Source: Cyclobacteriaceae bacterium (GTDB taxonomy: Bacteria > Bacteroidota > Bacteroidia > Cytophagales > Cyclobacteriaceae). Taken from it: 64,000 nt of DNA. Location: assembly GCA_022842845.1 (NCBI GenBank), contig JALHOT010000003.1, forward strand, positions 62,001 through 126,000. The letters are read 5' to 3'. The position numbers and the translations under genes are program-made. Shown here piece after piece: positions 4,390 to 62,729 of this stretch. Position 1 is the first letter of the stretch. Each line of letters begins with the position of its first letter. The notes beneath the pieces are model-generated. The model did no database searches and was not told where the DNA came from. It saw only the letters and a program-made list of their open reading frames with translations.

Positions 4390-7300
4390 ATGAGAACTCA
4401 AACTATGCTTTTGGTCTTTGTTTCAATGGTTTCAACAAGGCTCATGGCTCAGGAGCTACCCTATGCCTGGAATTTTACTTCCCAAACAATTACTCCTGAT
4501 GTCAACAGCACTTATAACGTAACAGGTTCTACAATTGATAACAGCGGAGACTTGTACATAGTTGGCTTCTTTACCGGTACATTAGATTTTGATCCAACCG
4601 CTGGAACATCCAATCTTACCTCCAGCGGTGGCAGCCAGGATATATTCTTTGCTAAGTACAACCCACAGGGCCAATTAGTAGGCACACCTAAGCGGCTAGG
4701 TACGGCAGGCGCTGAAACAAGTGGCAACATCTTTTTTGACAACGTAACAAGCTCAATTTATTTGACAGGATCGTTTACCGGCACTGCCGATTTCAATCCT
4801 TCCGGCACAGTTAATAACCTGGTTTCGGCAGGGGGCACGGATGCCTTTATTGCTCGGTATGACGCGGACGGAAATTTTCTGGGAGCGTCTGCAATTGGTG
4901 GAACTTTGGCAGATGCCGGAGGCAGCGTACGTGTTTATGGAGGAGATGTTTATATTACCGGCACCTACAACGGTACAGTGGACTTTGATCCGACTGCTGG
5001 TGTCACCAACCTCATCTCTGCAGGTAGTGCTGACGTATTCTTTGCCCGTTATACAGGTGCGGGCACCCTAGTGTGGGCTAAATCAATTGGTGGACTTGGT
5101 TTTGAAAATTTCGGTGCGCTTAGAATTGCCAACAATGCTATTTACCTATCAGTTCCGGTATCGGGATTTACGGTAGACTTCGACCCAGGACCAGGTGTAA
5201 GCAATCTTACAGGTTTTAATGGAACGTCAGATTTTACTTTTGCCAGTTATGATTTAAACGGAAACCTGAATTGGGCAAGGAAAATAGGAGGAGCAGGCTT
5301 TGAAAGTGGAACTCTTCACATCATTGATGGATCGGATTTATATGTAGCCGGTGGGTTTGAACAAACTGTTGACCTTGATCCCGGTGCAGGTGTAACCAGT
5401 GTAACGAGTAGTAGCGGACAAGATGCTTTTCTCTGCCGAATTAACGCTAGCGGTGATTTGGTATGGTCGAAGACATGGAGTGCTCCCGGCAATACAACGG
5501 CCAGTATTCAACAGGTACTGCCCAATAACACCTTACTTCTTACCGGTACTTTTGAAGGTACGATGGATTTAGACCCTAATAGCGGGGTATTCAATCAAAC
5601 CTCTAACGGGCTATCCGATGGGTATTTTCTGCGCATGACTACAGCCGGTAATTTAATCGATGGATTTTCTATGGGCAGTACGGCAGCAGACCCTGCTCCG
5701 GGTGCCATTTCAAATGTGGCCCTTACAAATTTTTATATGGCAGCCTTCTACACAACCCCAGTTGATCTTGACCCTACCACAGATGTCAATGGTGTTTCCA
5801 TCCTAAATGGCGGCTCTGGATTAAGCCAGTATTTTGCCACAAGCTATTCGCTGCTTTCTACGGTGCCCACAGCACAGCCGACAGGCCTTACCTTCAACAC
5901 ACCTACCGCTGACTCCTTTAACTTTCTATTTACCGCTGCCGCTGGAAGCCCTGATGGATACCTAGTAGTACGCAGAGCTGCATCATCACCTACAGGTGTG
6001 CCAAAAGATGGAAAGGAATACTTCCCTGGCGATCATCTGGGTGATGGTGTGGTGGTTCAATCCTCCGTTTTAACGAACGGCACTTCCACATTAATGGCAG
6101 CGAACACTACGTATCACCTTGATGTATTTGCATTCAACGGGGCAGGCAACTCTACAAATTACTTTACAATCGCCCCACTAGAAGGAAGTTTCACAACTTC
6201 CTCTATTGGTAACGATCGTGTTTCAGATTCTCTTGCCCTTCGAAGTATCTATACTGCTTTGGGCGGGCCGGGTTGGTTGAATAACTCGAACTGGCTTGTT
6301 GGTAGCATTGACACTTGGTTTGGGGTAACTGTTACTGCCAACAGGGTTACTTCAATCCAGCTTAGCGCCAATAGCATGTTTGGTCAGTTACCATCAACCC
6401 TGAATAACCTTACCAACCTGCAAACCTTAAACTTGTCTAACAACTTTATTTCTGGAGGTATACCCAGTGAGGTAGGAAATCTTCCAAATCTAGCAACGCT
6501 AAACTTATACAATAACCGACTCACGGGGAGTATTCCACCTACACTAGGCAACCTCAGCAACTTAACATTTTTGAGCCTTGGCGTAAATAAACTATCAGGC
6601 AGTATACCGATCTCTCTCGGAAATCTCGCGCTCCTTCAAATGTTGCATCTGGATGATAATATACTCAGTGGCTCAATTCCTATTGAGTTGGGGAACTTAT
6701 CAAACCTACTACAACTAAGATTAAGTAATAATGACTTAAGTGGGTCAATACCCTTGGAGCTTGCTGGCCTTACCAGTTTAACCAATTTTGAACTTGACCG
6801 AAATCTACTCACCGGTAGCATTCCTAACGAATTAGGCAATCTGACCGCTGCAACAATTTTTTATTTGTATTCCAATAAGCTATCCGGTTCTATACCCACT
6901 CAATTGGGGAACCTCGCCAGCGTACAGCAGCTAATTTTACACACCAATGATTTTACAGGTTCCATTCCAACAGAATTGGGTAACCTCACTAACTTAACTG
7001 ACTTAAGAATTTCAGCAACAAAAGTCTCAGGGGCAATACCCTCATCGCTCGGAAACCTCACCAATCTTCAGATTCTCTACCTCGGATTAAATAAAGATTT
7101 AACCGGAGCAGTACCTGCATCATTTACCAACCTTACCAACCTGGTACAATTAGATGTACAGGACAATAAGTTAGATTCCCTACCCAATTTATCAGGACTG
7201 GTTAACCTCACCACTTTAGTCGTTAGAAACAATAGGTTCACCTTCGAAGACTTAGAACCGAATATTTCAAAACTGGGAGCAGTCACTAATTATTCTCCGC

Positions 7301-10300
7301 AAGCAACTTTCGGTACACTACAAAGCATTGATGTAGTGGCAGGGCAAGCGTTGAATTTAACGGCCTCAGTAGGTGGTGTCAACAATATTTACCAATGGAA
7401 AAAAGTATCAACAAACGTGGGTACAAACTCAATCACCTTTACCATTCCTACAACGGTGTTGACCGATGCTGCAACGTATACCCTAACAGTTACAAATAGT
7501 ATTGTTCCATCCTTAACGCTTACTTCGGCAAATTTCAATGTTAAAATTAAAGCTGAATCCTTTTTTGAATGGATTTCCAACGCAGGGGATCTCACCACGG
7601 AAGGCTTGGCCCCCCCGGTTAACCAAGTTACTGACCAAAATTACAGTGGCAGTTGGGGAGATTTCAATAATGATGGACTTGAAGACCTTTATGTGATGGG
7701 CTTTGCAACCCAAGAAAGAGGATTTATCTATAAAAACAATGGCGATGGTACTTTTTCTAAACTGCCCAACAGTTCGTATTTCTTTGCTTCGGGCCGCAGT
7801 GCTACTTGGGCCGATTATAACAATGACGGATTCTTAGATTGCTTTGCTCCAGGTGGAAACACGACTGCCACTGATTCCATTTCTTTTGCCTCTGTCTATA
7901 AAAATAATGGCAACGAAACGTTTACACGGATTCCCTTACCTACAACCGCTTCGGCAGGCACCTGGTCTGATACGGATAATGATGGTGACGTGGATCTTAT
8001 CACCAATGGTGGTGGTGCCTTCCCCACACTTTTTCGAAACGAGGGGAACGATAGTTTTATGGCGCTTCCTGTATTCTCCACCAATGCCAGTGCCCAATGG
8101 AATATTATTACCGTGGATGTGAACAATGACAATATAGCAGACGTCTATATTCCTGACGACACGCAGCGAAATTTTTATGTTGGAAATGGAGACAACACCT
8201 TTACCCTAAACGCCACCACTCCGCTGGTGACAGATGTTCTGGCTGGCGCTCGAGGCATTTCGTGGGCCGACATTGACAACGATGGTGATTTCGATGCCTA
8301 CATCATGGGCAATTCCGTGGGCAATCGTTTCTATATAAATGATGGAGCCGGTAACTTTACCTTTCAGCCCACCACAACTATTTTAGGCGAAACCATAATA
8401 GGCTCTCGTGGTAGTGCCTTTGCCGATTATGATAATGATGGTTATGTAGATTTACTCAGTATACAAAGTCAGGCCCCTGCCGGGTGGTACTTATTTAAAA
8501 ATAATGGGAATGGCACCTTTACGAAACAACTAACTCAAAGCTTTAAAGGAGGTGGGGGTTTAGTAGGTGCCTCCTTTGGTGATTATGATAATGATGGGTT
8601 TTTGGATATTGTGTCCGCCTCCTTCGGTCTTGATTTTAACGGCCTCTACAAAAATAAAGGCAACAGCAACAACTGGTTGCAAGTGAAGTTAACCGGTACG
8701 ATGTCTAATCGCAGCGCCATCGGTGCCAAAGTGAGTGTAAAAGCTGGGGGATTCTGGAGACATGCGCAAGTGCTCACTGCCAATGGTTTTGCTAACCAAA
8801 ATTCACTGATTCAACAGTTTGGGTTGGGTGCTTCCACCACCGCTGATTCAGTCGTTATCAAATGGCCTTCGGGTGCCATTCAAACAGAATTGAACATAGC
8901 AGCCAACCAGCGTATTAACATCACGGAGGAAAATGCAGACTTAGAGGCCCTTGTGGCTCTTTACGACTCAACCGGTGGAGCAACCTGGACGAACAAAACG
9001 AACTGGCTGACGGGCCACGTTACTACTTGGTACGGTGTACGGGTGGCAAATGGAAGGGTGACCGATGTTAGGCTTCCAAATAACAACCTGACGGGCTCTA
9101 TTCCTCCAGCCATCGGCAACCTAAACGCCCTGGATTCACTGGAACTTGGCGGCAACCAATTGACGAATGGTATACCAGATGTTTTTTCAACTTTCAGCAA
9201 ACTGAAATACATCAATTTCGGTAGCAACCAACTTACTGGGGGCATACCCTCTACCCTGTTACAGTTAGATAGTTTAAGGACTTTAGGAATGGCCAGGAAT
9301 AATTTATCAAACACTATTCCGGCTGCCATTGGAAACCTCACGAGCCTTCGAAAGTTATGGTTAGATGAAAACCAGTTCAGCGGCCCTCTTCCAAACGAAT
9401 TGGGCAACCTCACGAGCCTAACTGATTTGTATGTACAAAAAAACCAATTAACCGGGGCCGTCCCTGCTTCCTTCGCCAACCTCACCAACCTGGTGGGTTG
9501 CGGATTGGATGACAACTCCTTTACCTCTTTACCCATTCTTACAGCACTTTCGAACCTAACCTACTTTAACATTACGGGTAATCAATTCACCTTCGAATCG
9601 TTAGAGCCCAATGTGGGTGTACCTGGAATCTTTTATACACCTCAAGATAGTCTGGGACTTGCTGACACCGTTTTAATTCCGACCAACCAGCCATATACCC
9701 TTAGCTATACCGTTGGTGGCAGTGCCAATACTTATGAATGGAAAAAGAACAATACCACCATCAATGGCATAACAGGTAACGGCCTTACCATCGGCACCCC
9801 TGTCTTTGCCGATGAAGGCACCTACAGACTTGAGGTACAAAGTCCATTGGTGCCCGGTCTTACCTTGTTTACTCGGCCAGTGCTGGTGAAAGTCTCATCA
9901 CTGAAAAGAGATTCCATCGCGCTAGCTAAATTGTATGCGGCAACAAACGGCAACAACTGGACCACCAAAACCAATTGGAATACTACTCCTATTTCCACCG
10001 GCAATTGGTTTGGGGTAACCATTACGGCTAATCGTGTCACACAAGTAAACTTGCCTTCAAACAAGTTGCAGGGACCAGTGCCCAGTGAATTTGCAGATTT
10101 GGAAGGAGTCACTACCATTAACCTGTCAAACAATTCCATTACCTCCTTACCCAATTTCACCACCTATCCTAACATTACCTCATTGAATGTGTCGGGAAAT
10201 AACCTTGACTTTGCCTCCTTAGAAGGAAATAGAAATCTGACCGGGATAAATTTTTCCGGCCAGAAAAATCCGGTGTTGGGTCCTGATACAATCCTCGTGG

Positions 10301-11457
10301 AGTCCGGAAAAGATTTTGTTTTACCTACTGATATTGGCGGTAGCGCAAATCGATATCAATGGAAAAGAGCGGGTGTAGCAGTGAGCGGTGCCATAGCCGA
10401 TAGTTTGGTCATTCAGGATATTGGCAGGGCAAATATGGGCATCTATGTAGTAGAGGTCAGCAATAACCTTGTTCCATCTCTCACATTAGTTTCTAAGCCT
10501 GTATCCATCTTAGCAACCGCTAACCTGTCTGGAAAGCTTCTGGTTGCTGAAGGCCCTGCAAAAGGAGGTATAGCCCGCTTATTAAGGGTAACCTCTTCCA
10601 ATGGCTATGATACTATTGATAATCAAAAAATAAATACAACGGGTGACTATGCTTTTAATCAGGTGGTATTGGATGATTATCAGATTGTGGGTTTTGCCGA
10701 TACCTTGGTAGCCGGACAAGAGCGTGCTTTACCTACTTACTACGAGAGCACCATTTATTGGGAGGAGGCTGATACGCTTTTTGTGCAGAACTCACTCATT
10801 GGCCTAAATATCACTTCGCTCCTAAAACCAGGGGCACCGCTCACAGGAAAGGGTTCTATCGCGGGTGTTGTGGTAGAAGATGATGGTGCAGGGGCGCGCA
10901 CGGCTAAAACCAAACGCGTTGGGGGAGCCGGAGTATCCGCCCGAAGAGTACAAGGGACGGGCCGCGGTCTCGTTCTAGGCCCCCTGGTAGCCTACGTTTT
11001 CACTAATGATGAAGGTGAATTTAATCTGGCAGATTTACCTGTAGGCACATACCGTATCAATATTCAGTACCCCGGTTATCCTATGGATCCTAACTCTTTT
11101 GTCGACATACCCATCGGCAGCTCAGCCCTCAATGAGAATGTGAATGTTGAGGCATTAGTAGCAGAGGGCAAAGTTACAGTACGGCAATTAATAATCACCA
11201 GCATAGAAACTGGCAGTTATGCGGCAGATGTCTATCCCAATCCCAGCACAGGTAACGTTGTCATAATCTTTGAAGAAAGTTCCTCACAGCGTAGCCTGAA
11301 CTTATTCGATATGCAAGGAATTGAAATATTAACGAAGCTTGCCGGTGAAAAAACAGTCAGCCTTGACCTGAATTCTCTTCAGGCTGGATTGTACCTGTTA
11401 AAGATAAAGATTGATGGACTCACCGCTAAATCTGTTCGAATATCCATTCAACGGTAG
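4390..11457 (+). CDS. Giant secreted multidomain protein: SBBP-like repeats, plant-type LRRs, FG-GAP/VCBS repeats, ASPIC/UnbV-like segment, Ig-like segments, T9SS sorting domain
   Basis: 2355 aa. N-terminal repeats 'GDLYIVGFFTGTLDFDPTAG..'; LRRs 'LTGSIPxxLGNLSNLxxLxLxxNxLSGSIP'; 'DYNNDGFLD/DIDNDGDFDAYI' calcium-loop repeats; 'NNWLQVKLTGT..RSAIGAKVSV' ASPIC-like; C-terminus 'AADVYPNPSTGNVVIIFEES...LLKIKIDGLTAKSVRISIQR'. Confidence 0.88.
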   Translation: MRTQTMLLVFVSMVSTRLMAQELPYAWNFTSQTITPDVNSTYNVTGSTIDNSGDLYIVGFFTGTLDFDPTAGTSNLTSSGGSQDIFFAKYNPQGQLVGTPKRLGTAGAETSGNIFFDNVTSSIYLTGSFTGTADFNPSGTVNNLVSAGGTDAFIARYDADGNFLGASAIGGTLADAGGSVRVYGGDVYITGTYNGTVDFDPTAGVTNLISAGSADVFFARYTGAGTLVWAKSIGGLGFENFGALRIANNAIYLSVPVSGFTVDFDPGPGVSNLTGFNGTSDFTFASYDLNGNLNWARKIGGAGFESGTLHIIDGSDLYVAGGFEQTVDLDPGAGVTSVTSSSGQDAFLCRINASGDLVWSKTWSAPGNTTASIQQVLPNNTLLLTGTFEGTMDLDPNSGVFNQTSNGLSDGYFLRMTTAGNLIDGFSMGSTAADPAPGAISNVALTNFYMAAFYTTPVDLDPTTDVNGVSILNGGSGLSQYFATSYSLLSTVPTAQPTGLTFNTPTADSFNFLFTAAAGSPDGYLVVRRAASSPTGVPKDGKEYFPGDHLGDGVVVQSSVLTNGTSTLMAANTTYHLDVFAFNGAGNSTNYFTIAPLEGSFTTSSIGNDRVSDSLALRSIYTALGGPGWLNNSNWLVGSIDTWFGVTVTANRVTSIQLSANSMFGQLPSTLNNLTNLQTLNLSNNFISGGIPSEVGNLPNLATLNLYNNRLTGSIPPTLGNLSNLTFLSLGVNKLSGSIPISLGNLALLQMLHLDDNILSGSIPIELGNLSNLLQLRLSNNDLSGSIPLELAGLTSLTNFELDRNLLTGSIPNELGNLTAATIFYLYSNKLSGSIPTQLGNLASVQQLILHTNDFTGSIPTELGNLTNLTDLRISATKVSGAIPSSLGNLTNLQILYLGLNKDLTGAVPASFTNLTNLVQLDVQDNKLDSLPNLSGLVNLTTLVVRNNRFTFEDLEPNISKLGAVTNYSPQATFGTLQSIDVVAGQALNLTASVGGVNNIYQWKKVSTNVGTNSITFTIPTTVLTDAATYTLTVTNSIVPSLTLTSANFNVKIKAESFFEWISNAGDLTTEGLAPPVNQVTDQNYSGSWGDFNNDGLEDLYVMGFATQERGFIYKNNGDGTFSKLPNSSYFFASGRSATWADYNNDGFLDCFAPGGNTTATDSISFASVYKNNGNETFTRIPLPTTASAGTWSDTDNDGDVDLITNGGGAFPTLFRNEGNDSFMALPVFSTNASAQWNIITVDVNNDNIADVYIPDDTQRNFYVGNGDNTFTLNATTPLVTDVLAGARGISWADIDNDGDFDAYIMGNSVGNRFYINDGAGNFTFQPTTTILGETIIGSRGSAFADYDNDGYVDLLSIQSQAPAGWYLFKNNGNGTFTKQLTQSFKGGGGLVGASFGDYDNDGFLDIVSASFGLDFNGLYKNKGNSNNWLQVKLTGTMSNRSAIGAKVSVKAGGFWRHAQVLTANGFANQNSLIQQFGLGASTTADSVVIKWPSGAIQTELNIAANQRINITEENADLEALVALYDSTGGATWTNKTNWLTGHVTTWYGVRVANGRVTDVRLPNNNLTGSIPPAIGNLNALDSLELGGNQLTNGIPDVFSTFSKLKYINFGSNQLTGGIPSTLLQLDSLRTLGMARNNLSNTIPAAIGNLTSLRKLWLDENQFSGPLPNELGNLTSLTDLYVQKNQLTGAVPASFANLTNLVGCGLDDNSFTSLPILTALSNLTYFNITGNQFTFESLEPNVGVPGIFYTPQDSLGLADTVLIPTNQPYTLSYTVGGSANTYEWKKNNTTINGITGNGLTIGTPVFADEGTYRLEVQSPLVPGLTLFTRPVLVKVSSLKRDSIALAKLYAATNGNNWTTKTNWNTTPISTGNWFGVTITANRVTQVNLPSNKLQGPVPSEFADLEGVTTINLSNNSITSLPNFTTYPNITSLNVSGNNLDFASLEGNRNLTGINFSGQKNPVLGPDTILVESGKDFVLPTDIGGSANRYQWKRAGVAVSGAIADSLVIQDIGRANMGIYVVEVSNNLVPSLTLVSKPVSILATANLSGKLLVAEGPAKGGIARLLRVTSSNGYDTIDNQKINTTGDYAFNQVVLDDYQIVGFADTLVAGQERALPTYYESTIYWEEADTLFVQNSLIGLNITSLLKPGAPLTGKGSIAGVVVEDDGAGARTAKTKRVGGAGVSARRVQGTGRGLVLGPLVAYVFTNDEGEFNLADLPVGTYRINIQYPGYPMDPNSFVDIPIGSSALNENVNVEALVAEGKVTVRQLIITSIETGSYAADVYPNPSTGNVVIIFEESSSQRSLNLFDMQGIEILTKLAGEKTVSLDLNSLQAGLYLLKIKIDGLTAKSVRISIQR

Positions 11458-11481: not shown

Positions 11482-11509
11482 ACCCCCTGCTTAATGATTA
11501 GCGGGGGGT
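11482..11509 (+). terminator. Hairpin terminator between the giant T9SS cargo gene and the CHAT gene
   Basis: ACCCCCTGC-TTAATGATTA-GCGGGGGGT (9-bp stem with one G-U) followed by ATTTCTTTGTATTTTT. Confidence 0.6.
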
Positions 11510-11547
11510 ATTTCTTTGTATTTTTAAACTTCTTTAAAGCATATCCT

Positions 11548-14500
11548 ATGAAAACAGTCGTCTCCTGTTTTTTATCATTTTTGATCTCCCACGCAGTGTT
11601 GGCACAAGAGATTCCGAAACAATACATTGTATTGGAACAGCATTACAATAATGGAAACTACTCGGCTTGCAGTAAGATGGAACAAGACGTGTTATCGATG
11701 GCCTCACAAAGAAAAGATACACTGGTAGCCAATAGCCTCTTTTACATCGGAAGCGCCTTCTTAGAGTTAGGGAAATCAGAAAAAGCCATAGCCTACTTTG
11801 AGAAAGAAAAAAACCTGAGAGCCGAACTGGGCCTCACCTCTTCAGAAGACTATAGCAATAGTCTTTCTAATTTGGTTTTTCTTTACATCGAAACTAGAAA
11901 CTACGCAGAATCCGGCAAACTACTTTCGGAGCTAATAAGTAACGATAAAAAGATCTTTGGTGCTACAGGAGACACTTACATTCAAACCGTCATCAACGCG
12001 TCTGAAACATTGCTTAACCTGGATCGAGTGGACGATGCTGAAGCATTATTACAAACTACGCTCAAGCAACAAGCCAAGGGCTCTGGAAATTATGGACTCC
12101 TTTTATCCAAGATGGGAGATATTTACACCTACTCAGGAAAATACTCGAAGGCGAATGCCGCACTTGCGGAGGCCTTGCCTATTTTAGAAAAATCATTTGG
12201 TACCAACTCTAATGAACAAATTTTGGCCTTGTTCAACCTGGGAACTCTTTACATGGCGCAAGGCAAGTATCCAGAAGCTGAAGAAGTGTTTGACTCTGTT
12301 TTGGACTTGGCAGACCCTAAACAACAAACCTATATTTCTACTCTTAATAACCAAGCACTCGTTTATCGTAGGCTCGGCTTTTTGGAAAAAGCTGAGCATA
12401 CATTTTCTGAGATAAAAACACTTGATAGCGCAACAGTTGGAATTGGCCATCCAGATTATGCCATCACGCTATCCAACATTGCCTTGGTGCAGACAGATGA
12501 AGGGAAATATGCAGCAGCTGAAAAAAATCTGCTAGAGGCTATAGATGTTCAGAGAAAAAATAAAGAAACAAAAACTGTTTCGTATGCACGAAAGGAAACC
12601 AACTTGGCACGGGTTTACCAGCTTTCTGGTCAAGCTAATAAAGCCATTCCTCTGTTAGAACGAGCTGCGGCCTCTTTCAAAAGCAATATGGGAGAAAAGA
12701 GTCCTGAATATGCAACTGCCCTTTTCAATTTAGGCATGGCCTATTGGAAAGCTGGAAAGGGGACAGAAGGCATTAAACTACTTAAAGCGTCTTCATCTAT
12801 ACGAGCTTCTTTACTTGGAAAAAAACATCCACTCTACGCAGAGAGTGCACAAAAAATTGCGGAGTACCAATGGCTGCAAAAGCAAAATAAGGAAGCCCAG
12901 CAAACCTTTGGCGAGGTTTTTAATAACTATTACAACCAAATCGATCTTACCTTTCCTGCATTAACCGAAGAAGAGAAAGCAAAATTCTATTACAATAATA
13001 TTCGTCCTTCCTTCGATAAGTTCAATGCCTTTGCCGTGCAGACCAGAGCTGAAATTCCATCAGTGCTAAGCGAAGTGTACAACCATCAGCTCAATACCAA
13101 GGGGGTAATTATGATGGCAACCGAAAAGGTAAAGCAAGGCATACAAAGTATGAATGACCCTGCGCTACTTGCACAATTTGAAGCATGGCAAGATTTGAAA
13201 GAACAAATAGCCAAACTCTATGGTCAGCATGACCAACCTGAAGTTTTGGATTCTTTAGTGCAAAGAGCCAACCTACTTGAGAAAGAACTTACCAGGAAGT
13301 CAGCTGCTTTTGCGAGTCAGTATGTTAAGAAAAAATATACCTGGGAGGAAGTGCAGCAGAAATTAAAACCAGGAGAAGCGGCCGTGGAAGTGATCCGCTT
13401 CATCAACTACACTCCCGATTTAGGCGGTAGCTTTCTTGAAGAAATTAAATACGCATTTTTGGTCATCACCCCACAAAGCAAAGGCCAGCCCGATTTGATT
13501 TTACTTAACAATGGCAAAGAGCTTGAAACCAAATTCATTAATTTTTACCGCAATAGCATACGCTTTCAGCAAGAGGATCGCTACTCCTATAAAAATTATT
13601 TTGAGCCTTTGGCCGATTACCTGAAGAACAATACAATTCAAAAAGTATTCTTTTCACCAGAGGGTGTTTACAATCAGATTAATCTGAATAGTGTTCGCAA
13701 TCCATTTACCCAACAATATATTCTAGATGAGTATGACATCCACCTACTCACCAATACAAAAGACCTAATTGCGCCTATTGCCGATAAGCGTGTCGGGCAA
13801 AGCCCAGTGCTGTTGGGTTTCCCTAAATTCAATTTAGAAGATAGCGGAAACACGAAGATTGCCGAAACAAGAGGCACTCGTGGAACGACCAGAGGTGGCA
13901 CTACCCGTGGGGGTATCAGCCGTGGCTTCAGAGGAGGTTTGCTTCGTTACATGCGCGGAGAACAAGATGGCATTTCTGTTTTACCAGGCACGCAAAAAGA
14001 AATTAATGAGATCTCCACTTTGTTTACAGACGCCCCAGCGGTGTATATGGAAGCGCAAGCAGCAGAACATACCATTAAGGCAGTTAATAATCCACGCATT
14101 TTACACATTGCTACACACGGCTATTTTTTAGAAGATGAAGTGACCGCCAGCGAAGGCAATAAAGCGCAATACATATCCAATCCCTTGTTAAAGGCAGGAT
14201 TAATTTTAGCTGGTGCCGAAAACTTTCTTACAACGGGTGATCCGGTGAATGAAGCCGGTGATGACGGTATCCTCACTGCTTATGAAGCCATGAACCTGAC
14301 CTTAGACAATACAGATTTGGTGGTATTATCGGCTTGCGAAACAGGCTTAGGGCAGGTAAAAAATGGTGAAGGTGTATATGGCTTACAGCGCGCCTTCCGG
14401 TTGGCTGGCACCAAAAACATTGTGATGAGTTTATGGAGTGTAGATGATGAGGCTACACAAGAATTGATGTCTTTGTTTTATAAAGAGATGCTTACTAATC

Positions 14501-14598
14501 CATCGCAACACGATGCATTCCGCATTGCGCAACAAAAACTTAAAGAAAAATTCAAGCAGCCTTTTTACTGGGGTGCCTTCATCATGGTAGGTAGATAA
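11548..14598 (+). CDS. TPR-repeat CHAT (caspase HetF-associated) domain protein, exported
   Basis: Signal peptide MKTVVSCFLSFLISHAVLAQ at ATG 11548 (track start 11494 lies in the terminator loop). Kinesin-light-chain-like TPRs; CHAT motifs ILHIATHGYF (His codon 14116-14118) and LVVLSACETGLG (Cys codon 14335-14337), GEGVYGLQRAF, MSLWSVDD. Confidence 0.9.
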   Translation: MKTVVSCFLSFLISHAVLAQEIPKQYIVLEQHYNNGNYSACSKMEQDVLSMASQRKDTLVANSLFYIGSAFLELGKSEKAIAYFEKEKNLRAELGLTSSEDYSNSLSNLVFLYIETRNYAESGKLLSELISNDKKIFGATGDTYIQTVINASETLLNLDRVDDAEALLQTTLKQQAKGSGNYGLLLSKMGDIYTYSGKYSKANAALAEALPILEKSFGTNSNEQILALFNLGTLYMAQGKYPEAEEVFDSVLDLADPKQQTYISTLNNQALVYRRLGFLEKAEHTFSEIKTLDSATVGIGHPDYAITLSNIALVQTDEGKYAAAEKNLLEAIDVQRKNKETKTVSYARKETNLARVYQLSGQANKAIPLLERAAASFKSNMGEKSPEYATALFNLGMAYWKAGKGTEGIKLLKASSSIRASLLGKKHPLYAESAQKIAEYQWLQKQNKEAQQTFGEVFNNYYNQIDLTFPALTEEEKAKFYYNNIRPSFDKFNAFAVQTRAEIPSVLSEVYNHQLNTKGVIMMATEKVKQGIQSMNDPALLAQFEAWQDLKEQIAKLYGQHDQPEVLDSLVQRANLLEKELTRKSAAFASQYVKKKYTWEEVQQKLKPGEAAVEVIRFINYTPDLGGSFLEEIKYAFLVITPQSKGQPDLILLNNGKELETKFINFYRNSIRFQQEDRYSYKNYFEPLADYLKNNTIQKVFFSPEGVYNQINLNSVRNPFTQQYILDEYDIHLLTNTKDLIAPIADKRVGQSPVLLGFPKFNLEDSGNTKIAETRGTRGTTRGGTTRGGISRGFRGGLLRYMRGEQDGISVLPGTQKEINEISTLFTDAPAVYMEAQAAEHTIKAVNNPRILHIATHGYFLEDEVTASEGNKAQYISNPLLKAGLILAGAENFLTTGDPVNEAGDDGILTAYEAMNLTLDNTDLVVLSACETGLGQVKNGEGVYGLQRAFRLAGTKNIVMSLWSVDDEATQELMSLFYKEMLTNPSQHDAFRIAQQKLKEKFKQPFYWGAFIMVGR

Positions 14599-14670: not shown

Positions 14671-15618
14671 TTAATTACTTTCTAACAGTTTAAAGAGTTC
14701 ATCTAAATCAGGGGTAATGATAATCTCTGTTCTTCTGTTCTTCTGTTTATTTTGAGGCGTATCGTTACTCATCAAGGGTGAAAACTCACCTTTGCCTGCT
14801 GCCACAATCTGCTTAGGCGCTACACCACCTTTCACCAATATTTTGGTAATGGATGTAGCCCGCATCACACTCAAATCCCAGTTGTCCTGCATATAGGCAG
14901 ATTTCTTGGAAATCGGCACGTTGTCTGTATGGCCTTCTACCATAATATTGATATCGCGCTGATCTTTTAAGGCCTTCGCTAATTGCTGCAATGCCCCTAC
15001 CCCTTTTTGATCAACTTCAATACTACCGGAGCCAAAAAGCAACTGCTCTGCCAAGGAGACATATACTTTTCCATTCTTAACTTTAACCGTTAAATCATTT
15101 TCCTTAAAATTTAATAAGGCATTGCTGATGCGCGCTTTAAGGTCTTGTACCGCCTTGTCTTTGTTAGCAAGAATTTGCTCCAATTCATTTACCTTCTTTT
15201 CACGCTCCGCCAAACTGCTGCTCAATGAATCATTCTGCCTTCTTGTTTTTTCTAAACTTTCCTGAATGGCTAACAACTGCTGTTGTTGCTGGGTCAGATC
15301 GCGGTTCATTTTACCACTGTTGCTTAACAGATTTTTGTATAAAGTATTAAGCTGTTCATGCTCCTTTTCAAGTGAACTAAGCTTGCGCTGGTTCTGTCGC
15401 AGGTTAGTGCCTAAGGCCCCCGTATCAGCCTTTAATTGATCAAACTGCTGGTTTAAACTTGAATATTTACCGGTGAGTGAATCTAATTGGGCTGTTCTTT
15501 CGTTAAGGTCAGCCTCTGTCCTAACCTTTTGGGCCAGCATATCATCAAATTTCTTTTTAGAAACGATGCAGCTGCTTAAAAAAATGGTCAGTGTGAAAAA
15601 TAAAAAAATTCTTTTCAT
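14671..15618 (-). CDS. OmpA family lipoprotein/peptidoglycan-binding protein with coiled coil
   Basis: MKRIFLFFTLTIFLSSCIVSKKKFDDML (lipobox), long coiled coil, C-terminal OmpA motif 'INIMVEGHTDNVPISKKSAYMQDNWDLSVMRATSITKILVKGGV...NRRTEIII'. Confidence 0.9.
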   Translation of the reverse strand: MKRIFLFFTLTIFLSSCIVSKKKFDDMLAQKVRTEADLNERTAQLDSLTGKYSSLNQQFDQLKADTGALGTNLRQNQRKLSSLEKEHEQLNTLYKNLLSNSGKMNRDLTQQQQQLLAIQESLEKTRRQNDSLSSSLAEREKKVNELEQILANKDKAVQDLKARISNALLNFKENDLTVKVKNGKVYVSLAEQLLFGSGSIEVDQKGVGALQQLAKALKDQRDINIMVEGHTDNVPISKKSAYMQDNWDLSVMRATSITKILVKGGVAPKQIVAAGKGEFSPLMSNDTPQNKQKNRRTEIIITPDLDELFKLLESN

Positions 15619-27341: not shown

Positions 27342-27770
27342 TCAACTAATAACAGAAAGTAGCCGCTCAGGAATAGCGGCTACTTTTCTTTTTTCATAAT
27401 CAAAACAAACAATACCTGTTTTACCTCTTGCTACCTCTTTACCGCTTGCTTCATTCAACACGAGGTACAGTAAATCAAAACCATATTTGTTAATATCGGC
27501 TACAGCCAGTTGAATAGACAATACATCTCCCAAAAAGGCCTCTGCTTTATAAATCACCAAAGCATCTGATATAATCTGGCCCACACTGCCTTCAAAGCTT
27601 ACCTCATCTTTAAAACCATGCGCTCGGTAAAAATTAATACGGGCCTGTTGCATCAGCACCAGCATGTTATCATTGCCTACATGCGCTCCGTAGTTGAGGT
27701 CGTTCACACGTACGGTGAGGCTCGTAGCATAGATAAAGTGTTCAGGAAGGTCCAGTTGAAGGCGTGCCAT
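27342..27770 (-). CDS. Acyl-CoA thioesterase-like (4HBT hotdog-fold) protein
   Basis: 'VRVNDLNYGAHVGNDNMLVLMQQARINFYRAHGF' is typical of the hotdog thioesterase family. Confidence 0.82.
   Translation of the reverse strand: MARLQLDLPEHFIYATSLTVRVNDLNYGAHVGNDNMLVLMQQARINFYRAHGFKDEVSFEGSVGQIISDALVIYKAEAFLGDVLSIQLAVADINKYGFDLLYLVLNEASGKEVARGKTGIVCFDYEKRKVAAIPERLLSVIS
27356..27393 (+). terminator. Rho-independent terminator of the 24154-27291 gene, inside the 3' end of the convergent CDS
   Basis: AAAGTAGCCGCT-CAGGAAT-AGCGGCTACTTT followed by TCTTTTTTC. Confidence 0.75.
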
Positions 27771-27923: not shown

Positions 27924-30900
27924 ATGGCTGTTCTTCGTTTATCCATTTTTCTCCTGCTTCTGAGCTTCTCACTCACGGCTCAGCGCAATCCCTTTCCAGT
28001 ATCTGCTAACGCCTTAACAGCGAATGGAAAGAAAATAGGGCACTGGACCTTACTCTACACGAAAGAATGGAAACAAGTAATTGACCCGGACTCCGCTGAA
28101 TTTTACCGATTGATTTACTTCGAAGAGGGCATCCCCTCTGGCAAAGTGCGCGACTTCTTTCGCAACGGAACAAAACAATGGGAGGGCTATCTACAATCTG
28201 TAGATCCAGATATAAAAGTGAACGAAGCAAAATACTATTTCGAAAATGGAAAGGTGCAATACGAAGTAGTCTACAAAAACAATTTGCTGGATGGCCCTTT
28301 AAAAGAGTACAACCCTCAGGGAAAATTACTCTCTCAGGGACACATGAAAAGCGACACAGCCTACGGGCAATGGTCTACCTATCGGGAAGATGGGAGTTTA
28401 TTTACCGTGAACATTCGAAAACATGATGTAGTTGATGGTCCCCTTACGGTATACTATTCTTCCGGAAAAGTGGAAAAAAAAGGTACCAAGAAAATGGGGA
28501 AGACCCATGGCTGGTGGGACGAGTTCTATGAAAATGGTACGCTGAAAAGTCACGAGTACTTTGAGCATGACTTGATGGAAGGATTGGCCGAAACCTACTA
28601 TGAAAACGGACAGCTGGAAACAAAAGGTACTTACCTACACGGTAATAAAATTGGCGAATGGTGGTTTTACTACGAGAATGGTGTAGTCTCTAAAACAGGT
28701 TTGTACGACTCGGCAGGCAACACCACGGGACTGTGGCAATACAACTACACGAACGGAAATCGAAACTTACTAGCGGAGCGAAGAGATGGTAAATTACATG
28801 GCTTATATGAAGATTATTACGAAAGTGGTAAGCTAAAAAGTAAATCGCAATGTGTAAACGATTTATGGCAAGGTAATTTTGAAGCTTACTTTGAAAATGG
28901 TGTGCTGAGTAAAAAAGGCAACTACATTGGCGACAGTCTAACAGGAGAATGGGTTTACTACAATGAAAACGGAACCCTTGTTGTGCAAGGAAGTTTTATA
29001 GACAATAAGAAAAACGGAAAATGGATCTATAATTTTCCAAACGGCCAGACTGAATCCCTAGAGAACTTTGTGCTGGGTGCATTGGAGGGGGCCTATGAAT
29101 CTTATCACGAAAATGGAGTGCTTGCCAATAGAAAAACCTATCATCACAACCAGTTTCATGGTTTGTCAGAATCGTATTACAACAATGGTCAACTGGAGTC
29201 TGTTGGAGTTTATATTAACGGAAAAAGAAATGGGCTATGGAAGTGGTACCATGCCAATGGCCAATTAAAAACCGAAGAGAATTACTCACAAGGAATATGG
29301 GATGGGCCGTATACAGAGTATCATGTCAATGGAAACAAAAAATCAGAAGGCACTGCAGTGAAGCAGCTTCGTGAAGGCGCCTACACTGGTTACTATTATT
29401 CAGGGAGCAAGCGTAGCAGTGGTCATTACAAAAATGATGTACGCGATGGCTATTGGATCTACTATGATTCACTCAAGGGTTTCAAAGAATCAGAAGGGCT
29501 TTACGTAGCGGGAAAATTTCACAAACAGTGGAAGTTTTACGATGAACGTGGAAAGCGTACAGGAATTGGTTACTACACGAATGGTTTTTTGGAAAATTTC
29601 TTCTCTTTAGAAGACAGTTTAAAAACACTTTCACAACTAGGCCTGATTGAAAAGGAATGGGAAGTAGTAAAGCGGTTGGATGAGGTGAGAAAACGGGATT
29701 CTCCTAAGAACGAACTGCGCAAGAATATGATGTATTTCTGGAAAGGGTATGTCTATGGCGATGCCGGCAAACATGAAGAAGCCATTGCAGAATATGCCAG
29801 CTACATCCGAGGCTTGCGTAAATTAAAAGCAGATACCTCTTTCGACTACTCCAGCGCCATCAACAACATGGCTATTTCCTACAGCGCTCTTGGTAAGCAC
29901 CACGAGGCCCTGGCACACTACAATGACCTCACTCCCTTTTACAGCAAACGGAAAATAGAAAACAGAGACGAGGTGGTACACCACTGCAACATTGCCTACG
30001 AGAGAGGAAAGCTATACCACCTGAGGGACCAAGAACGTTACCTGATCAAGTACAAAGACTCACGAGAAAAAACAAGCAGAGTCAATCCGGAAAACACTCT
30101 CATTCTTTTAAATAATCTGGGAACATTTTATCTCAATGATACCAGCCTCTATGATCAAGCCATTTGCACATATGAACAAATACTTTCACTTACAGAAAAG
30201 CAAGCCTTAGAAAAAAAGGATCGCTATGGACTGGCACTTTACAATATTGGCTTAGCTCATAGAGCCAAGTACAACTTCACAGAAGCCATACGCTGGTTCA
30301 AAAAAGCAGAGCAGTTTTTTGCTACCGATCTTTCGAGTTGGGGTGGTGCCTATCTGAATGTGCTTGACAGGATGGGGAATACCTATGTGGGCAATCGACA
30401 ACTGGACAGTACACGCATGACGTATACAAGAATGCTTAACACCATCGAAAAGTTGGGATGGCAACACGACCGCTGGCAGGCCCTGGCGCTGGATGGGCTT
30501 GCTGAAGTCTATCATTATGAGTATGAAGAACAAAAAGCATACGAAATATGGATGGAAGCCAAACAATTGCTGGAAAAGCTTAATATGGAAAACAGCATAC
30601 TCTATGCAGACATACTTCAATCACTCAGCATTTGTCTTCCGCTTGTGCATCCGGCAGAAGTTGCCGTAGCTGAGCGGTACTTACTAAAAAGTCTTGGTCT
30701 GATGGAAAAGATCCAGGGCAAAGGGTGGCAATACAGAAATATTTTAATGGCCTTGGCCGAGTTCTACACAGGACGCGATCAATACGAAAAAGCCTATGCC
30801 CTTTTACAAGAAGTGTTAACACTCACAGAACAAATAGAAGGCAAGCAATCCTTAAAATATGCAGCAGCCCTTAACAGCTTAGGCGATTTATATTATGAAC

Positions 30901-33900
30901 AAGAAAGCTACTCGAAAGCAATTGACTCCTACCAGAAAGCCATACCCATTGCCAGACTCTATGAGAAGAATAACCCCAACACCCTCATTACCATTCTGGC
31001 CAACCTAAGTGCTGTAGAGCGTAAGTTGTTGCATTATGAAGTCGCAGAAAAGTATCAACGTGAGAGCATGCAACTGACTAAAAACACCAATGGCCTGCAA
31101 AGCACAGAGTACATAACCAAATTATTGGACATGGCTTTCTTAAAGAGAAGCCAGAACTTGTACACCGAGGCAGAACACTATTATATTGAGGCGCTACACC
31201 GAACCGATACCTTGATGGGCAAAAAAAGTTTTCGTTACGCATCCATTGTTCGCAACCTGGGAAAAGTGTACCAAGACAACGCTCAATACAAAAAGGCAGA
31301 AGCACAATACAAATTAAATCAGCAGTTGGTGCTGGAATTGGTAGGTGAAAAATCGTCTGAGAACCTATTGGTGATTTCTGACTTTGCCTTGCTTTATAAA
31401 TACATGGATAAGTTGAAGGAAGCTGAAGCTTATTACCTGCAGTCGGTTTCACTGGGTGGAGAAGTGTTTGGAAATTCCAGCATGGAGTATGCCTACAAAC
31501 TCAGCAACACCAGCAATTTTTATTTTCAGAATAATCAACTCTTTCTGGCAGAAAAATACGGCAGGCAAGCCATTGACATCGCCCTGTCTGTGCTAGGTGA
31601 GAATAGCATTGCCTATGCTGGTTTTTTGCTGGACATGGCTAGCATCTACATGCAAGTAGATAAAAATAAAGAAGCAGAAGAGGCCTACTTAAAAGCCATA
31701 GCCATTTACAAAATAAATCAAGTCGACAATTTTGGCGGGTATATAGCTGCACTTCAAAACATTCAGGGATTTTACCTAAAGTTTGGGCAGCATGAAGATG
31801 CGCTGCACTACTCATCTCTTGCCTTAACTCTTATTGACCAACGCTGGGGCAAAGAATACAAGTATGCTGAAAACTTGTTGAGTCGTGCACGCATCCATTT
31901 TGAGGTAGAAAATTATGACTCTGCGCGCCACTACGCTACCCAGGGGCTCTTGCTTTTTACAGATATAGTTAGCCCCAATCATTGGCAAGTATTGGAGGCC
32001 CACAATATTCTGGGGCTTGCCGATATTAAGCAACAAAATCTAACAGAAGCAGAACAACATTTTCGTTTCTGTATTGAGCAGCGAAACCTCTCCCATACGG
32101 CTGGCAGCTTTCAACAAGCCAGTTCGCTGCACAACTTAGCAGCGGTCTTACTGGAACGAGGGGAGTTCATTCAAGCAGAAAAACTCTACAATCAGTCGAA
32201 AGCGCTTTCCGATTCTCTCCAGATAGAAGATGCGAATACCTACGCCTCTTATCATCTTAACAAAGCAAAATTGTACAATGCCTGGGGAAAACCTGCATTG
32301 GCTGAAAAACACATGAGCCTGGCTACAGAGCGCATCAAAGCGTATGTGATGTCTAACTTCTACTTTCTGAGTGATAATGAAAAAGCACAGTATTGGAAAA
32401 ACTACCGTTTCTATTTTGAGTACTTTCAGTCAATGGCCGTACAGCATTCCAAACAGAATCCGTCACTGTTGGGTGATCTATATAACCTGCAATTAGAAAC
32501 AAAAGGTATCTTACTTTCTACCTCCAACAAAATACGAAAGCGTATCCTCAGCAGTGGCGATTCACTTATGACCAATCAGTACTATCAGTGGGTGAACCAA
32601 CGCAATCAGCTGGCACAATGGTATACACTCTCCAAAGAAGAGCAGAAAAAAAATAAGCTCTCCATCGACTCACTCGAACTTCTCTCCAGAAAAATTGAAA
32701 AAGAGTTGAACATCACCGCAGAAGAAGTGGAGAAAGACAGGGGAAAAAGCATTACCTGGCGCGATGTACAAAAGGCGTTAAAACCGGACGAGGCAGCCAT
32801 TGAATTTATGCGCGTTCGCCACCACACCACTCGCCCTACTGATAGCATTGTGTATGTGGCACTGATCTTAACAAGCGAAATGACGAAAGGTCCTGCTCTG
32901 GCGGTTTTACCCGATGGTATCACACTCGAAGGGCGCGTGTATCGCTATTACAAAAATGCTATGCAGGCGCAGGTAACGGACACTTCTTCTTATCACCAAT
33001 ATTGGGCGGCTGTGGCGCCTTTCGTAAAAACAAAAAACAGGCTTTACATTTCATTAGATGGTGTGTACAACTCTATCAACCTTAACTCCTTGTTACTACC
33101 TAATAACAATTTTCTGGCCGATGAGAAAACAATCAGTTTGTTGGCTAACACCAAGGAGTTGGTCTTGCTGAAAAAATCATCTGTACGCTTTACACGCATC
33201 AACGCCAGGCTATTCGGCTTCCCCAAATATTTCCTGGGTGCAGATAAAATGAAAGAGAAAGCGGGGGAAGAACGGAATGCCGACCTGAGTTTACTTTCGA
33301 CAGAAGATAATAGCGGCATTGCATCTTTGCCAGGTACAAAAACAGAAATTGAGAAAGTGTCGAACATTCTGGAGAGTCATCACTGGCAAGTCAATTCAAT
33401 GCTTGATGAACACGCCACAGAAGAAGCAGTAAAAGAAATTCGTCAACCACGCTTGTTGCACATTGCCACCCATGGATTTTTTACAGACGAGCGTAGCAGT
33501 AGTACGCTAGGTACTAACGATCCTATGCTTCGCGCGGGTTTACTCTTTAGCGGGGCGGCTAATTTTGTACAAGATCATCTTCAACTGCCGGGTGACAACG
33601 GAATTCTTACTGCTTATGAAGCGGCCAACCTAAATCTTGATAACACTGAAATGGTCGTGCTCAGTGCGTGCGAAACAGCTAAGGGTGAAATTCAAAATGG
33701 AGAAGGCGTGTATGGTTTGCAGCGTGCCTTCCAAACAGCCGGTGCTAAATCCATTATCATGAGTTTATGGAAAGTAGACGATGCTGCCACGCAAAAACTG
33801 ATGACGGGTTTTTATGAGCAATGGACCAGTGGCAAAACTAAATCGGAGGCTTTCAAAACAGCTCAGCTCAATCTTAAAAAAGAGTATCCGCATCCTTACT

Positions 33901-33932
33901 ATTGGGGCGCTTTTGTGTTGATGGGTGAGTAA
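27924..33932 (+). CDS. MORN/YwqK-repeat + TPR + CHAT-domain giant exported protein (~2002 aa)
   Basis: Signal peptide MAVLRLSIFLLLLSFSLTAQ at ATG 27924 (track start 27618 overlaps the divergent thioesterase). ~27990-29590 encodes many MORN_2 units ('YYENGQLETKGTYLHGNKIGEWWFYYENG'), ~29690-32330 TPRs, ~32750-33929 CHAT with LLHIATHGFF (His 33471-33473) and MVVLSACETAKG (Cys 33669-33671). Confidence 0.9.
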   Translation: MAVLRLSIFLLLLSFSLTAQRNPFPVSANALTANGKKIGHWTLLYTKEWKQVIDPDSAEFYRLIYFEEGIPSGKVRDFFRNGTKQWEGYLQSVDPDIKVNEAKYYFENGKVQYEVVYKNNLLDGPLKEYNPQGKLLSQGHMKSDTAYGQWSTYREDGSLFTVNIRKHDVVDGPLTVYYSSGKVEKKGTKKMGKTHGWWDEFYENGTLKSHEYFEHDLMEGLAETYYENGQLETKGTYLHGNKIGEWWFYYENGVVSKTGLYDSAGNTTGLWQYNYTNGNRNLLAERRDGKLHGLYEDYYESGKLKSKSQCVNDLWQGNFEAYFENGVLSKKGNYIGDSLTGEWVYYNENGTLVVQGSFIDNKKNGKWIYNFPNGQTESLENFVLGALEGAYESYHENGVLANRKTYHHNQFHGLSESYYNNGQLESVGVYINGKRNGLWKWYHANGQLKTEENYSQGIWDGPYTEYHVNGNKKSEGTAVKQLREGAYTGYYYSGSKRSSGHYKNDVRDGYWIYYDSLKGFKESEGLYVAGKFHKQWKFYDERGKRTGIGYYTNGFLENFFSLEDSLKTLSQLGLIEKEWEVVKRLDEVRKRDSPKNELRKNMMYFWKGYVYGDAGKHEEAIAEYASYIRGLRKLKADTSFDYSSAINNMAISYSALGKHHEALAHYNDLTPFYSKRKIENRDEVVHHCNIAYERGKLYHLRDQERYLIKYKDSREKTSRVNPENTLILLNNLGTFYLNDTSLYDQAICTYEQILSLTEKQALEKKDRYGLALYNIGLAHRAKYNFTEAIRWFKKAEQFFATDLSSWGGAYLNVLDRMGNTYVGNRQLDSTRMTYTRMLNTIEKLGWQHDRWQALALDGLAEVYHYEYEEQKAYEIWMEAKQLLEKLNMENSILYADILQSLSICLPLVHPAEVAVAERYLLKSLGLMEKIQGKGWQYRNILMALAEFYTGRDQYEKAYALLQEVLTLTEQIEGKQSLKYAAALNSLGDLYYEQESYSKAIDSYQKAIPIARLYEKNNPNTLITILANLSAVERKLLHYEVAEKYQRESMQLTKNTNGLQSTEYITKLLDMAFLKRSQNLYTEAEHYYIEALHRTDTLMGKKSFRYASIVRNLGKVYQDNAQYKKAEAQYKLNQQLVLELVGEKSSENLLVISDFALLYKYMDKLKEAEAYYLQSVSLGGEVFGNSSMEYAYKLSNTSNFYFQNNQLFLAEKYGRQAIDIALSVLGENSIAYAGFLLDMASIYMQVDKNKEAEEAYLKAIAIYKINQVDNFGGYIAALQNIQGFYLKFGQHEDALHYSSLALTLIDQRWGKEYKYAENLLSRARIHFEVENYDSARHYATQGLLLFTDIVSPNHWQVLEAHNILGLADIKQQNLTEAEQHFRFCIEQRNLSHTAGSFQQASSLHNLAAVLLERGEFIQAEKLYNQSKALSDSLQIEDANTYASYHLNKAKLYNAWGKPALAEKHMSLATERIKAYVMSNFYFLSDNEKAQYWKNYRFYFEYFQSMAVQHSKQNPSLLGDLYNLQLETKGILLSTSNKIRKRILSSGDSLMTNQYYQWVNQRNQLAQWYTLSKEEQKKNKLSIDSLELLSRKIEKELNITAEEVEKDRGKSITWRDVQKALKPDEAAIEFMRVRHHTTRPTDSIVYVALILTSEMTKGPALAVLPDGITLEGRVYRYYKNAMQAQVTDTSSYHQYWAAVAPFVKTKNRLYISLDGVYNSINLNSLLLPNNNFLADEKTISLLANTKELVLLKKSSVRFTRINARLFGFPKYFLGADKMKEKAGEERNADLSLLSTEDNSGIASLPGTKTEIEKVSNILESHHWQVNSMLDEHATEEAVKEIRQPRLLHIATHGFFTDERSSSTLGTNDPMLRAGLLFSGAANFVQDHLQLPGDNGILTAYEAANLNLDNTEMVVLSACETAKGEIQNGEGVYGLQRAFQTAGAKSIIMSLWKVDDAATQKLMTGFYEQWTSGKTKSEAFKTAQLNLKKEYPHPYYWGAFVLMGE

Positions 33933-58761: not shown

Positions 58762-61587
58762 TTATCTTCCATAATAAACGAATGGCGCCCAGTAATTAGG
58801 ATGCTTAAATGCATCGCCAAATGCACCTTTTATAAATTTTCTTTTCAATTCATTAATGACAGGTACATAGGTCTTACCCTTGGCACTCTCTCTGTATAAA
58901 CCTGTCATAAATTGCATGGTGGCATTGTCGTTTACAGGCCATAAAGAAACCAAAGCAGCATTTGAACCTGCCACTAACAGTGATTGAGTAAGGCCTGTTA
59001 CACCTTCGCCCGAATAAATTTTACCTAAAGCGGTCTGGCAAGCCGAAAGAACTGTTAAGTCTGCATTCAATTGCAAAGAGGCAATTTCATCAACAGTCAC
59101 GTAGCCATCTTCTCCAGCTTGCTCATTGGCAAAAATGCTCATGGCAATGCCGGATAAATCAGGAATGTCATTCACCACGAAACCATGAGTGGCTAAATGT
59201 AAAACCTTGTAACGCGTTAACTGGCCACTGACAGAGAGTTGTTTCAATCTGTTCTCCGTCATCTGTGCTCCTAAAAAGATATCTGCCTGTGGTACTATGG
59301 CGCTGATATTCTTAACCTCTTCCACAGTACCTGGCAAAGCATCCATGGCTTGTGTACCAAAAATTGCTGCGTATGCTTTTCGCTGCGACAATTTTTTACT
59401 CAGATTTTCGGCTACATCAATTTGCAATTGGTTTTTATCTTTCTGGTTTTTTAAAGGTGCCGCTTCTATCTTCATATCTTCAAAAACTGCACCTCCCATA
59501 GCAAGCAGTCCCTTTCGATCAGCAGCATAGTTACGTTGTTGCAATTGCTGCAAAGCGCCTACTGAATGCAGGTATTTAACATCATATTTTTCAACCAGGT
59601 ATTTACCATCCTGCGCCATGAGTGCCTCAAAAGGCAGGAAGTTCAATACACCATCGGGAGAAATCATTAGCTTTTTAATGCCAGTCAACCGATTTAATAT
59701 CGGAACAATTAAAAAGCGGTAGTAACCCTGCAAATACTCCTGCAAAATATTATCTGCCATTCCTGGCCGCTCGAAAAATTTGCGTGTTAACTGTGTAACT
59801 TTATTAAAGTCAGACACCTGCACTCGTCTGTCAGGATCGTAATCCTCTTCTCCTTCCAAACCTTTGCGCTCACCATGCTCCTGGTTCAATTTATCAAGGT
59901 ACTTATCTTTTATACCTCCCATAAAAGTATTGTCGCTATGAAAAAGAACTTGGGCACTTTTTTTGGTGACCACCAAAATGGAAACCTCATGCCCTGAAAA
60001 AAGAGAATACATAAGGCAAGCTTCATCAGCTGCCAACATGTTTTGTAAGTCAGACAAAGCAGCACGCTTTATTGCTTTACCCTTTGCCAGTCTTTCGGTT
60101 AATACCCGGCTGCGACTCGCCTCCATGCTTTGAAATGCCCTTGCTGGCTGATTGAGATGCGCATAGCTAGCCGTTAGAAAGTCGTACGCTCCAATCTGTG
60201 CCTGGTAAAAACTTAATTTATCTTCAAAGGAGAGTTGGCCTATTTCACGCTCTGCCATCCTGATCGACTCTTCAAAAATTTTAGCAGCCTCTGCATAATC
60301 CTTACCCTGATGAAACATAATGGCTCCATAATTATTCATGGTTTCGGCTGCCCGATTATATTGCCCCTTTGCCTTGTAGTATTTGGTTAAACCACCAAGG
60401 GTGGTAAAGCACTTGGCCACACCATCAGTAGTACCCAGTCGTAAATAAGCAATGGCTAAATAGTTATACATACCATAGGCTACATCATCAAAGTGGTATG
60501 AGAATGCATAATCCTGAGCCATCTCACCAAATTGAACTATTTCTGTAGGCGAGAGCACGCCAACTTTAAACGCGTTGACAAAAACTGCTTCGTAACCCAA
60601 TACCAAAGCATAGCCGAAGCCATATTTCTGTGCAAACTGAACCGTGAGCCCTGCCAAGGTTTTGGCTTCTTCAGGTTTATTCAAACCATCATAAGCTTTG
60701 CTTGCGGCCAACAAGCCGAGTATATCATACACATGGAGATCGCATTTTGTAGCCAGGGTGGTTAGTTCTTCCACATGTTGAATCACTCTTTCATAATTAC
60801 CTACAGCATCGTATGATGCGATAAGTTGATAAATCATACAAGAGGCTATCAAAGCATTTTGACGATACCCATTTTTATAGTAGTATGAATAGCCCTTTTG
60901 CGCCACCTCTAATGACTGGCTTAAATGTCCGTAACCTCTTAACCAATTTGCAGCGCTTACGTAGGCAGCCAATGCCATTTCGTGCCAAGCTTGTTGTTCA
61001 TAGATGGCAGCATAACGATTGGCCTCTTGCAGCAAACCAGCAGGGTTGTTCTGCACCAATTGAGCATAATGTGCGTTTACCTGATCAAGACTTATGTAGC
61101 GTTCAGTTACCTTACGCTGTTCTTGTTCATACCAACTGGCCAGTGCATTAAATTGTGCATCCATTTTGAGTACCTGGCCAACAGCGACTATGTCCTCCTT
61201 CGCTTCGTGCATTGTGAAATTCTGAGGGAAAACTTTTAATGATTCCTTCAAATAAGATTGTGCCGAAGTTTCATTACCCTTTGCCGCGAAATAAAGGCCA
61301 CAGTTTACAAACATGGCATAAGCGCTTGGGTCTAATTGCAATCCAAGAGTGATATAAGGACCTGCCTCATCTACCTTCCCTAAATGCAATAAATTATGGG
61401 AAGAGAGAATGTAAACATTGAGCATATCCGGTTGAGCTGCCCTCACCTTTTCAACCATCTCTTGCGATGCACTAAATTTCTTGTCTCCTGATAAACGAAA
61501 AGCCACTTGCATGAGGCTATCGTAGTATTGCCCATAGACATTACCGACTGTAACTACCGCTAAAAGAAATAAAAACAGTTTTCTCAT
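58762..61587 (-). CDS. TPR-repeat CHAT domain protein, exported
   Basis: Signal peptide MRKLFLFLLAVVTVGNVYGQ; TPRs; CHAT motifs VLHLATHGFV (His codon complement 59185-59187) and LTVLSACQTALG (Cys codon complement 59038-59040), GEGVTGLTQSLLVAGSNAALVSLWPVND. Confidence 0.9.
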   Translation of the reverse strand: MRKLFLFLLAVVTVGNVYGQYYDSLMQVAFRLSGDKKFSASQEMVEKVRAAQPDMLNVYILSSHNLLHLGKVDEAGPYITLGLQLDPSAYAMFVNCGLYFAAKGNETSAQSYLKESLKVFPQNFTMHEAKEDIVAVGQVLKMDAQFNALASWYEQEQRKVTERYISLDQVNAHYAQLVQNNPAGLLQEANRYAAIYEQQAWHEMALAAYVSAANWLRGYGHLSQSLEVAQKGYSYYYKNGYRQNALIASCMIYQLIASYDAVGNYERVIQHVEELTTLATKCDLHVYDILGLLAASKAYDGLNKPEEAKTLAGLTVQFAQKYGFGYALVLGYEAVFVNAFKVGVLSPTEIVQFGEMAQDYAFSYHFDDVAYGMYNYLAIAYLRLGTTDGVAKCFTTLGGLTKYYKAKGQYNRAAETMNNYGAIMFHQGKDYAEAAKIFEESIRMAEREIGQLSFEDKLSFYQAQIGAYDFLTASYAHLNQPARAFQSMEASRSRVLTERLAKGKAIKRAALSDLQNMLAADEACLMYSLFSGHEVSILVVTKKSAQVLFHSDNTFMGGIKDKYLDKLNQEHGERKGLEGEEDYDPDRRVQVSDFNKVTQLTRKFFERPGMADNILQEYLQGYYRFLIVPILNRLTGIKKLMISPDGVLNFLPFEALMAQDGKYLVEKYDVKYLHSVGALQQLQQRNYAADRKGLLAMGGAVFEDMKIEAAPLKNQKDKNQLQIDVAENLSKKLSQRKAYAAIFGTQAMDALPGTVEEVKNISAIVPQADIFLGAQMTENRLKQLSVSGQLTRYKVLHLATHGFVVNDIPDLSGIAMSIFANEQAGEDGYVTVDEIASLQLNADLTVLSACQTALGKIYSGEGVTGLTQSLLVAGSNAALVSLWPVNDNATMQFMTGLYRESAKGKTYVPVINELKRKFIKGAFGDAFKHPNYWAPFVYYGR

Positions 61588-61593
61588 GACTGC

Positions 61594-62721: not shown

Positions 62722-62729
62722 TCTTTACA

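Follow-up and report, generated by a model that had tools for sequence, protein, structure and literature searches.

A single intact frame on the forward strand of the window, by which we mean the whole 64,000-nucleotide stretch of Cyclobacteriaceae DNA that was analysed, encodes a 2002-aa protein in which a MORN_2 repeat array, a TPR region and a C-terminal CHAT domain follow one another behind a predicted signal peptide (Table 1). This MORN-TPR-CHAT architecture is real and conserved, but rare. We consider the chances about even that the protein is a CHAT-type endopeptidase of the caspase/separase cysteine protease clan, encoded by one gene and Sec-exported to the periplasm, where it would be docked by its MORN repeats, gated by its TPR region and directed against a specific envelope protein.

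Table 1. Features of the MORN-TPR-CHAT gene in the window (aa, residues of the encoded protein)
Feature	Position	Strand	Basis or remark
MORN-TPR-CHAT gene	27924-33932	+	Mature mass ~228 kDa; homologues with the same architecture
Predicted Sec signal peptide, MAVLRLSIFLLLLSFSLTAQ	27924-27983	+	Residues 1-20, read by eye from the sequence
N-terminal cap, aa 24-100	27993-28223	+	Invariant residues in aligned members
MORN_2 array, ~21 beta-hairpins of 24 residues, aa 37-552	28032-29579	+	Pfam, period, model, MORN1 fold matches
Helical TPR region, aa 559-1460	29598-32303	+	Pfam TPR_12, kinesin-light-chain-like matches, first helices in model
Helical pre-CHAT segment, aa 1461-1618	32304-32777	+	Model of aa 1461-2002; conserved in 66 sequences
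Alpha/beta caspase-like region, aa 1623-2002	32790-33929	+	Pfam CHAT match to aa 1703-2002, model, Foldseek
Putative catalytic His codon, H1850 (HIATHG)	33471-33473	+	Invariant, 66/66
Putative catalytic Cys codon, C1916 (SACET)	33669-33671	+	Invariant, 66/66

The frame opens with an ATG at 27924 and closes with a stop codon at 33930-33932. The ORF finder's longer frame, starting at 27618, was rejected because its additional part runs into a thioesterase gene (27342-27770) on the opposite strand. A signal-peptide-like N-terminus, recognized by eye, is present at ATG 27924, in keeping with the exported start put forward in the initial annotation, and reading of the sequences revealed a hydrophobic N-terminal segment in the six relatives first examined as well. 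Judged from these N-termini, the protein is probably Sec-exported and periplasmic. The Pfam scan gave no match to Por_Secre_tail, the C-terminal sorting domain of type IX secretion, and the CHAT domain forms the C-terminal end of the protein. Behind the signal peptide lies an N-terminal cap in which P25, N29, K84, Q85, G88, L90, S92 and P95 are identical in all seven members of the first alignment, whereas stand-alone MORN proteins match only from profile position 36 or later, most of them well beyond it. The division into three blocks, as originally annotated, was borne out by Pfam matches to MORN_2, TPR_12 and CHAT.

The MORN_2 match (PF07661; E 2.3e-34, 113.8 bits against a cut-off of 29.6) covers units repeated in tandem with a 24-residue period. 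An AlphaFold2 model of aa 24-640 (mean pLDDT 93, pTM 0.63) contains 42 consecutive strands, or about 21 hairpins spanning aa 37-552, followed by helices. MORN1 crystal structures were among its Foldseek matches, with TM-scores of up to 0.69 by target length; matches to Rhs and teneurin shells were treated as generic beta-strand matches because their TM-scores were ~0.1. MORN repeats have been re-evaluated as protein-protein and dimerization modules (PMC7725318), which supports protein contact or dimerization as the role of the array, and this published work argues against lipid binding. The sensing of an envelope polymer or lipid by the array, put forward in the initial annotation, is not supported. 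Compared unit by unit, the array has an identity of 0.30 to its counterpart in the distant G009 relative, which does not improve on a repeat-consensus baseline (0.28); conservation of a specific ligand surface across the whole clade is thus not supported. Raw identities to the G077 relative (39% for MORN, 22% for TPR) hinted that MORN is more conserved than TPR; this idea was dropped, since the control showed much of the MORN identity to be repeat consensus and since dN/dS is similar in both blocks (MORN 0.097, TPR 0.109). Stand-alone MORN_2 (YwqK-like) arrays from the same order share the 24-residue units with the window protein but, unlike it, are open frames of 433-711 aa that lack a CHAT domain. 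A stand-alone MORN_2 protein of ~596 aa with a signal-peptide-like start is found in the same genome as the window (L099:4979-6790).

The TPR region matches TPR_12 in seven stretches (E 6.8e-56, Pfam) and has kinesin-light-chain-like matches. The CHAT match (PF12770; E 1.3e-60, 205.7 bits against a cut-off of 24) extends over aa 1703-2002. Both residues of the dyad are retained at exactly the codons named in the initial annotation, and H1850 and C1916 occur without exception in the 66 aligned CHAT modules. A model of aa 1461-2002, built with 66 sequences, is confident (pLDDT 90.4, pTM 0.90), and in it each of the two residues follows a core strand. The best PDB matches of the module in Foldseek were Csx29 in Craspase, then separase, DdvA and gingipain R, with E-values for Csx29, separase and gingipain ranging from 3.7e-12 (Csx29) to 2.9e-6; the TM-scores, ~0.5 or less by query length, indicate common domains that are arranged differently. 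A CHAT fold had been claimed from the sequence, together with a likeness to the TPR-CHAT protein Csx29, and both claims agree with this confident model and its resemblance to Csx29 and separase. Catalysis by the CHAT domain is likely because the dyad is invariant, the predicted fold is confident and the CHAT region is under strong selection. We infer, with good support, that the protein is a protease.

At least 13 relatives, from assemblies of Cytophagales or of unplaced Bacteroidetes in every case, share the architecture from end to end, with identities of 29-45% in other genomes. Six came from whole-genome searches (G077, G136, G201, G229, G378 and G009) and others from named assemblies (L171-L177) with the domain order unchanged; L178, taken to be the G009 sequence, was not counted separately. 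With the window protein included, the members number at least 14, from searches in which the two to three best candidates were scored per genome. The scan of named genomes returned no relatives with a single-protein query and recovered them with an alignment query. Since the architecture recurs in other genomes, a chance or misassembled fusion was rejected. In two relatives, L174 (first frame 1335 aa) and L177 (1324 aa), the reading frame is broken although the CHAT region can still be read, through either decay or an error of assembly. MORN-TPR-CHAT proteins occur in 6 of the 390 genomes of the order sample, the window's own genome included; no further one was found among the two to three best candidates per genome in the class sample (388 genomes) or, with a MORN query, in the phylum sample (396 genomes). 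At the threshold applied, MORN matches were absent from a genome of the same genus (G004). The closest pair of copies, G378 and G201, is under purifying selection, with a dN/dS of 0.089 overall and of 0.027 in the CHAT block. The MORN-TPR-CHAT variant is probably active.

The initial annotation treated the protein as isolated, which it is not: exported TPR-CHAT proteins form a large paralogous family in the lineage, and the MORN arm alone is unusual. The window genome (3.76 Mb) encodes eight CHAT proteins in all, six others of which have signal-peptide-like starts. Exported TPR-CHAT proteins of Cytophagales and Bacteroidota (PF12770 plus TPR) share with the window protein the signal-peptide-like start, the TPR region, the pre-CHAT/CHAT module and the dyad, but lack the MORN array and the N-terminal cap. 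A phylogeny of 60 CHAT modules contains a branch that separates the 14 MORN members from all the others (UFBoot 96, SH-aLRT 65; recovered in 98% of 200 bootstrap replicates); when seven MORN members were included, in an earlier tree, the SH-aLRT was 88. Identity of the CHAT module is 45-65% within this clade, against at most ~44% between the window protein and TPR-CHAT proteins without MORN. Repeated independent fusion is not needed when all 14 members form one clade, and the simplest account would be a fusion that arose once among the exported TPR-CHAT proteins and was later lost or transferred. Novelty lies in the MORN arm; both the TPR-CHAT core and the families to which the blocks belong were known before. 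In a literature search that covered few subscription journals, we found no paper bringing together MORN, TPR and a CHAT domain, in line with the initial annotation, and no functional study or activity data for exported Bacteroidota TPR-CHAT proteins. To our knowledge, no MORN-gated protease has been characterized.

In the endopeptidase proposal, the MORN ribbon would serve as a long docking or dimerization arm and the TPR region would bind a protein or peptide partner. By analogy with Csx29, the TPR region may keep the C-terminal CHAT domain inactive until that partner binds, whereupon the His1850/Cys1916 dyad would cut a specific envelope protein. The models cover aa 24-640 and aa 1461-2002 separately. 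Csx29, the protease of the type III-E CRISPR Craspase, is a TPR-gated CHAT cysteine protease whose TPR domain passes an activating signal to the catalytic residues (PMC10028731). Unlike the window protein, it acts with Cas7-11 and RNA and has no MORN repeats, and type III-E cas genes are absent among the neighbours scanned at the locus. A profile search against Csx29 chains was weak (E ~0.12), in contrast to the strong structural match, and Csx29 is probably an analogue in fold rather than close kin. HetF, a cyanobacterial CHAT protein with roles in the divisome and in heterocysts, is a putative protease whose function needs the active site, and the part of the source consulted does not mention MORN repeats (PMC8406250). 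A further reading, in which one chain would be both receptor and protease, the MORN ribbon taking up an envelope signal, the TPR region relaying it and the CHAT domain cutting a specific envelope protein, is tentative and rather less likely than not. Exported TPR-CHAT proteins are abundant in the lineage and, if they are regulated proteases, the periplasm would have a caspase-like signalling layer of its own. As the sensor-like arm of the MORN subclade could be truncated away, the question of gating is testable; were the proposal true, MORN repeats would gain a role beyond known scaffolds.

DdvA of Myxococcus xanthus, a transmembrane anti-sigma factor that is inactivated by an external signal (PMC4374960), matches the CHAT module in structure (PDB 8rot; 8rot_A, E 2.8e-8). 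It lends some weight to an alternative in which the window protein, as a TPR-CHAT sensor in the periplasm, would pass on its signal through binding and not through cleavage; the same may be true of DdvA, and catalysis would be secondary or unused. The window protein has a signal-peptide-like start instead of the transmembrane character of DdvA; the Pfam scan gave only MORN_2, TPR and CHAT, with no anti-sigma domain; and a purely binding domain would not need both dyad residues to be invariant across 66 paralogues. We regard this explanation as unlikely. A similarly low probability is assigned to an ungated protease of envelope maturation or turnover, in which MORN and TPR would merely anchor the enzyme and choose its substrates: gingipain R, an exported Bacteroidota cysteine protease, is a fold match of the CHAT module, and no partner gene conserved across genera was found, but ~1430 repeat residues under purifying selection exceed what simple anchoring should require. 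That the protein is the effector of a conflict or self-killing system, its repeats recognizing non-self and releasing CHAT, is very improbable: CHAT peptidases are effectors of bacterial conflict systems (PMC10907252) and the distribution in the order sample is patchy, but PADLOC gave no match, defence genes are absent among the scanned neighbours, the protein appears to be exported and not cytoplasmic, and a fast-evolving sensor block is absent from the G378/G201 pair.

In the window, the gene is accompanied by genes for a BNR-repeat protein, the thioesterase, a cNMP-binding regulator and a polyketide-cyclase-like protein and by an efflux operon. Flanking genes vary between genera, and no neighbour conserved across genera was found beside the MORN-TPR-CHAT relatives checked, which is consistent with a stand-alone protein. 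PD40-OmpA was rejected as a dedicated partner, as it adjoins the gene in a single genus (genomes G201, G229 and G378) and in none of the other relatives checked. Of the 58 CHAT genes collected, 8, from about three lineages, have an OmpA-type gene directly beside them, and the window genome has 20 OmpA-domain matches; this adjacency is a hint concerning the wider CHAT family rather than the MORN clade.

Two more TPR-CHAT genes with signal-peptide-like starts are located in the window, at 11494-14598 (+) and 58762-61587 (-). The first is preceded by a gene (4390-11457, +) for a 2355-aa protein that combines LRR, FG-GAP and UnbV_ASPIC with a type IX sorting tail, which ends ~36 bases upstream, and is followed 73 bases downstream by a convergent OmpA-domain gene (14671-15618, -). 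The second lies in an apparent operon (58762-63955, -) with three genes (61594-62721, 62730-63563 and 63569-63955), none of which matched a Pfam, NCBIfam or PADLOC family. Elsewhere, the order TPR-CHAT, PD40-OmpA and a 737-750-aa protein without a Pfam match recurs at three loci (L095:2072-10383, L150:2215-10464 and L153:4541-12861), with 9-14 bases separating the CHAT gene from the next one. In Cyclobacterium plantarum, TPR-CHAT matches led to three stretches of a single contig that overlap one another (L204, L208 and L219), which suggests a tandem cluster.
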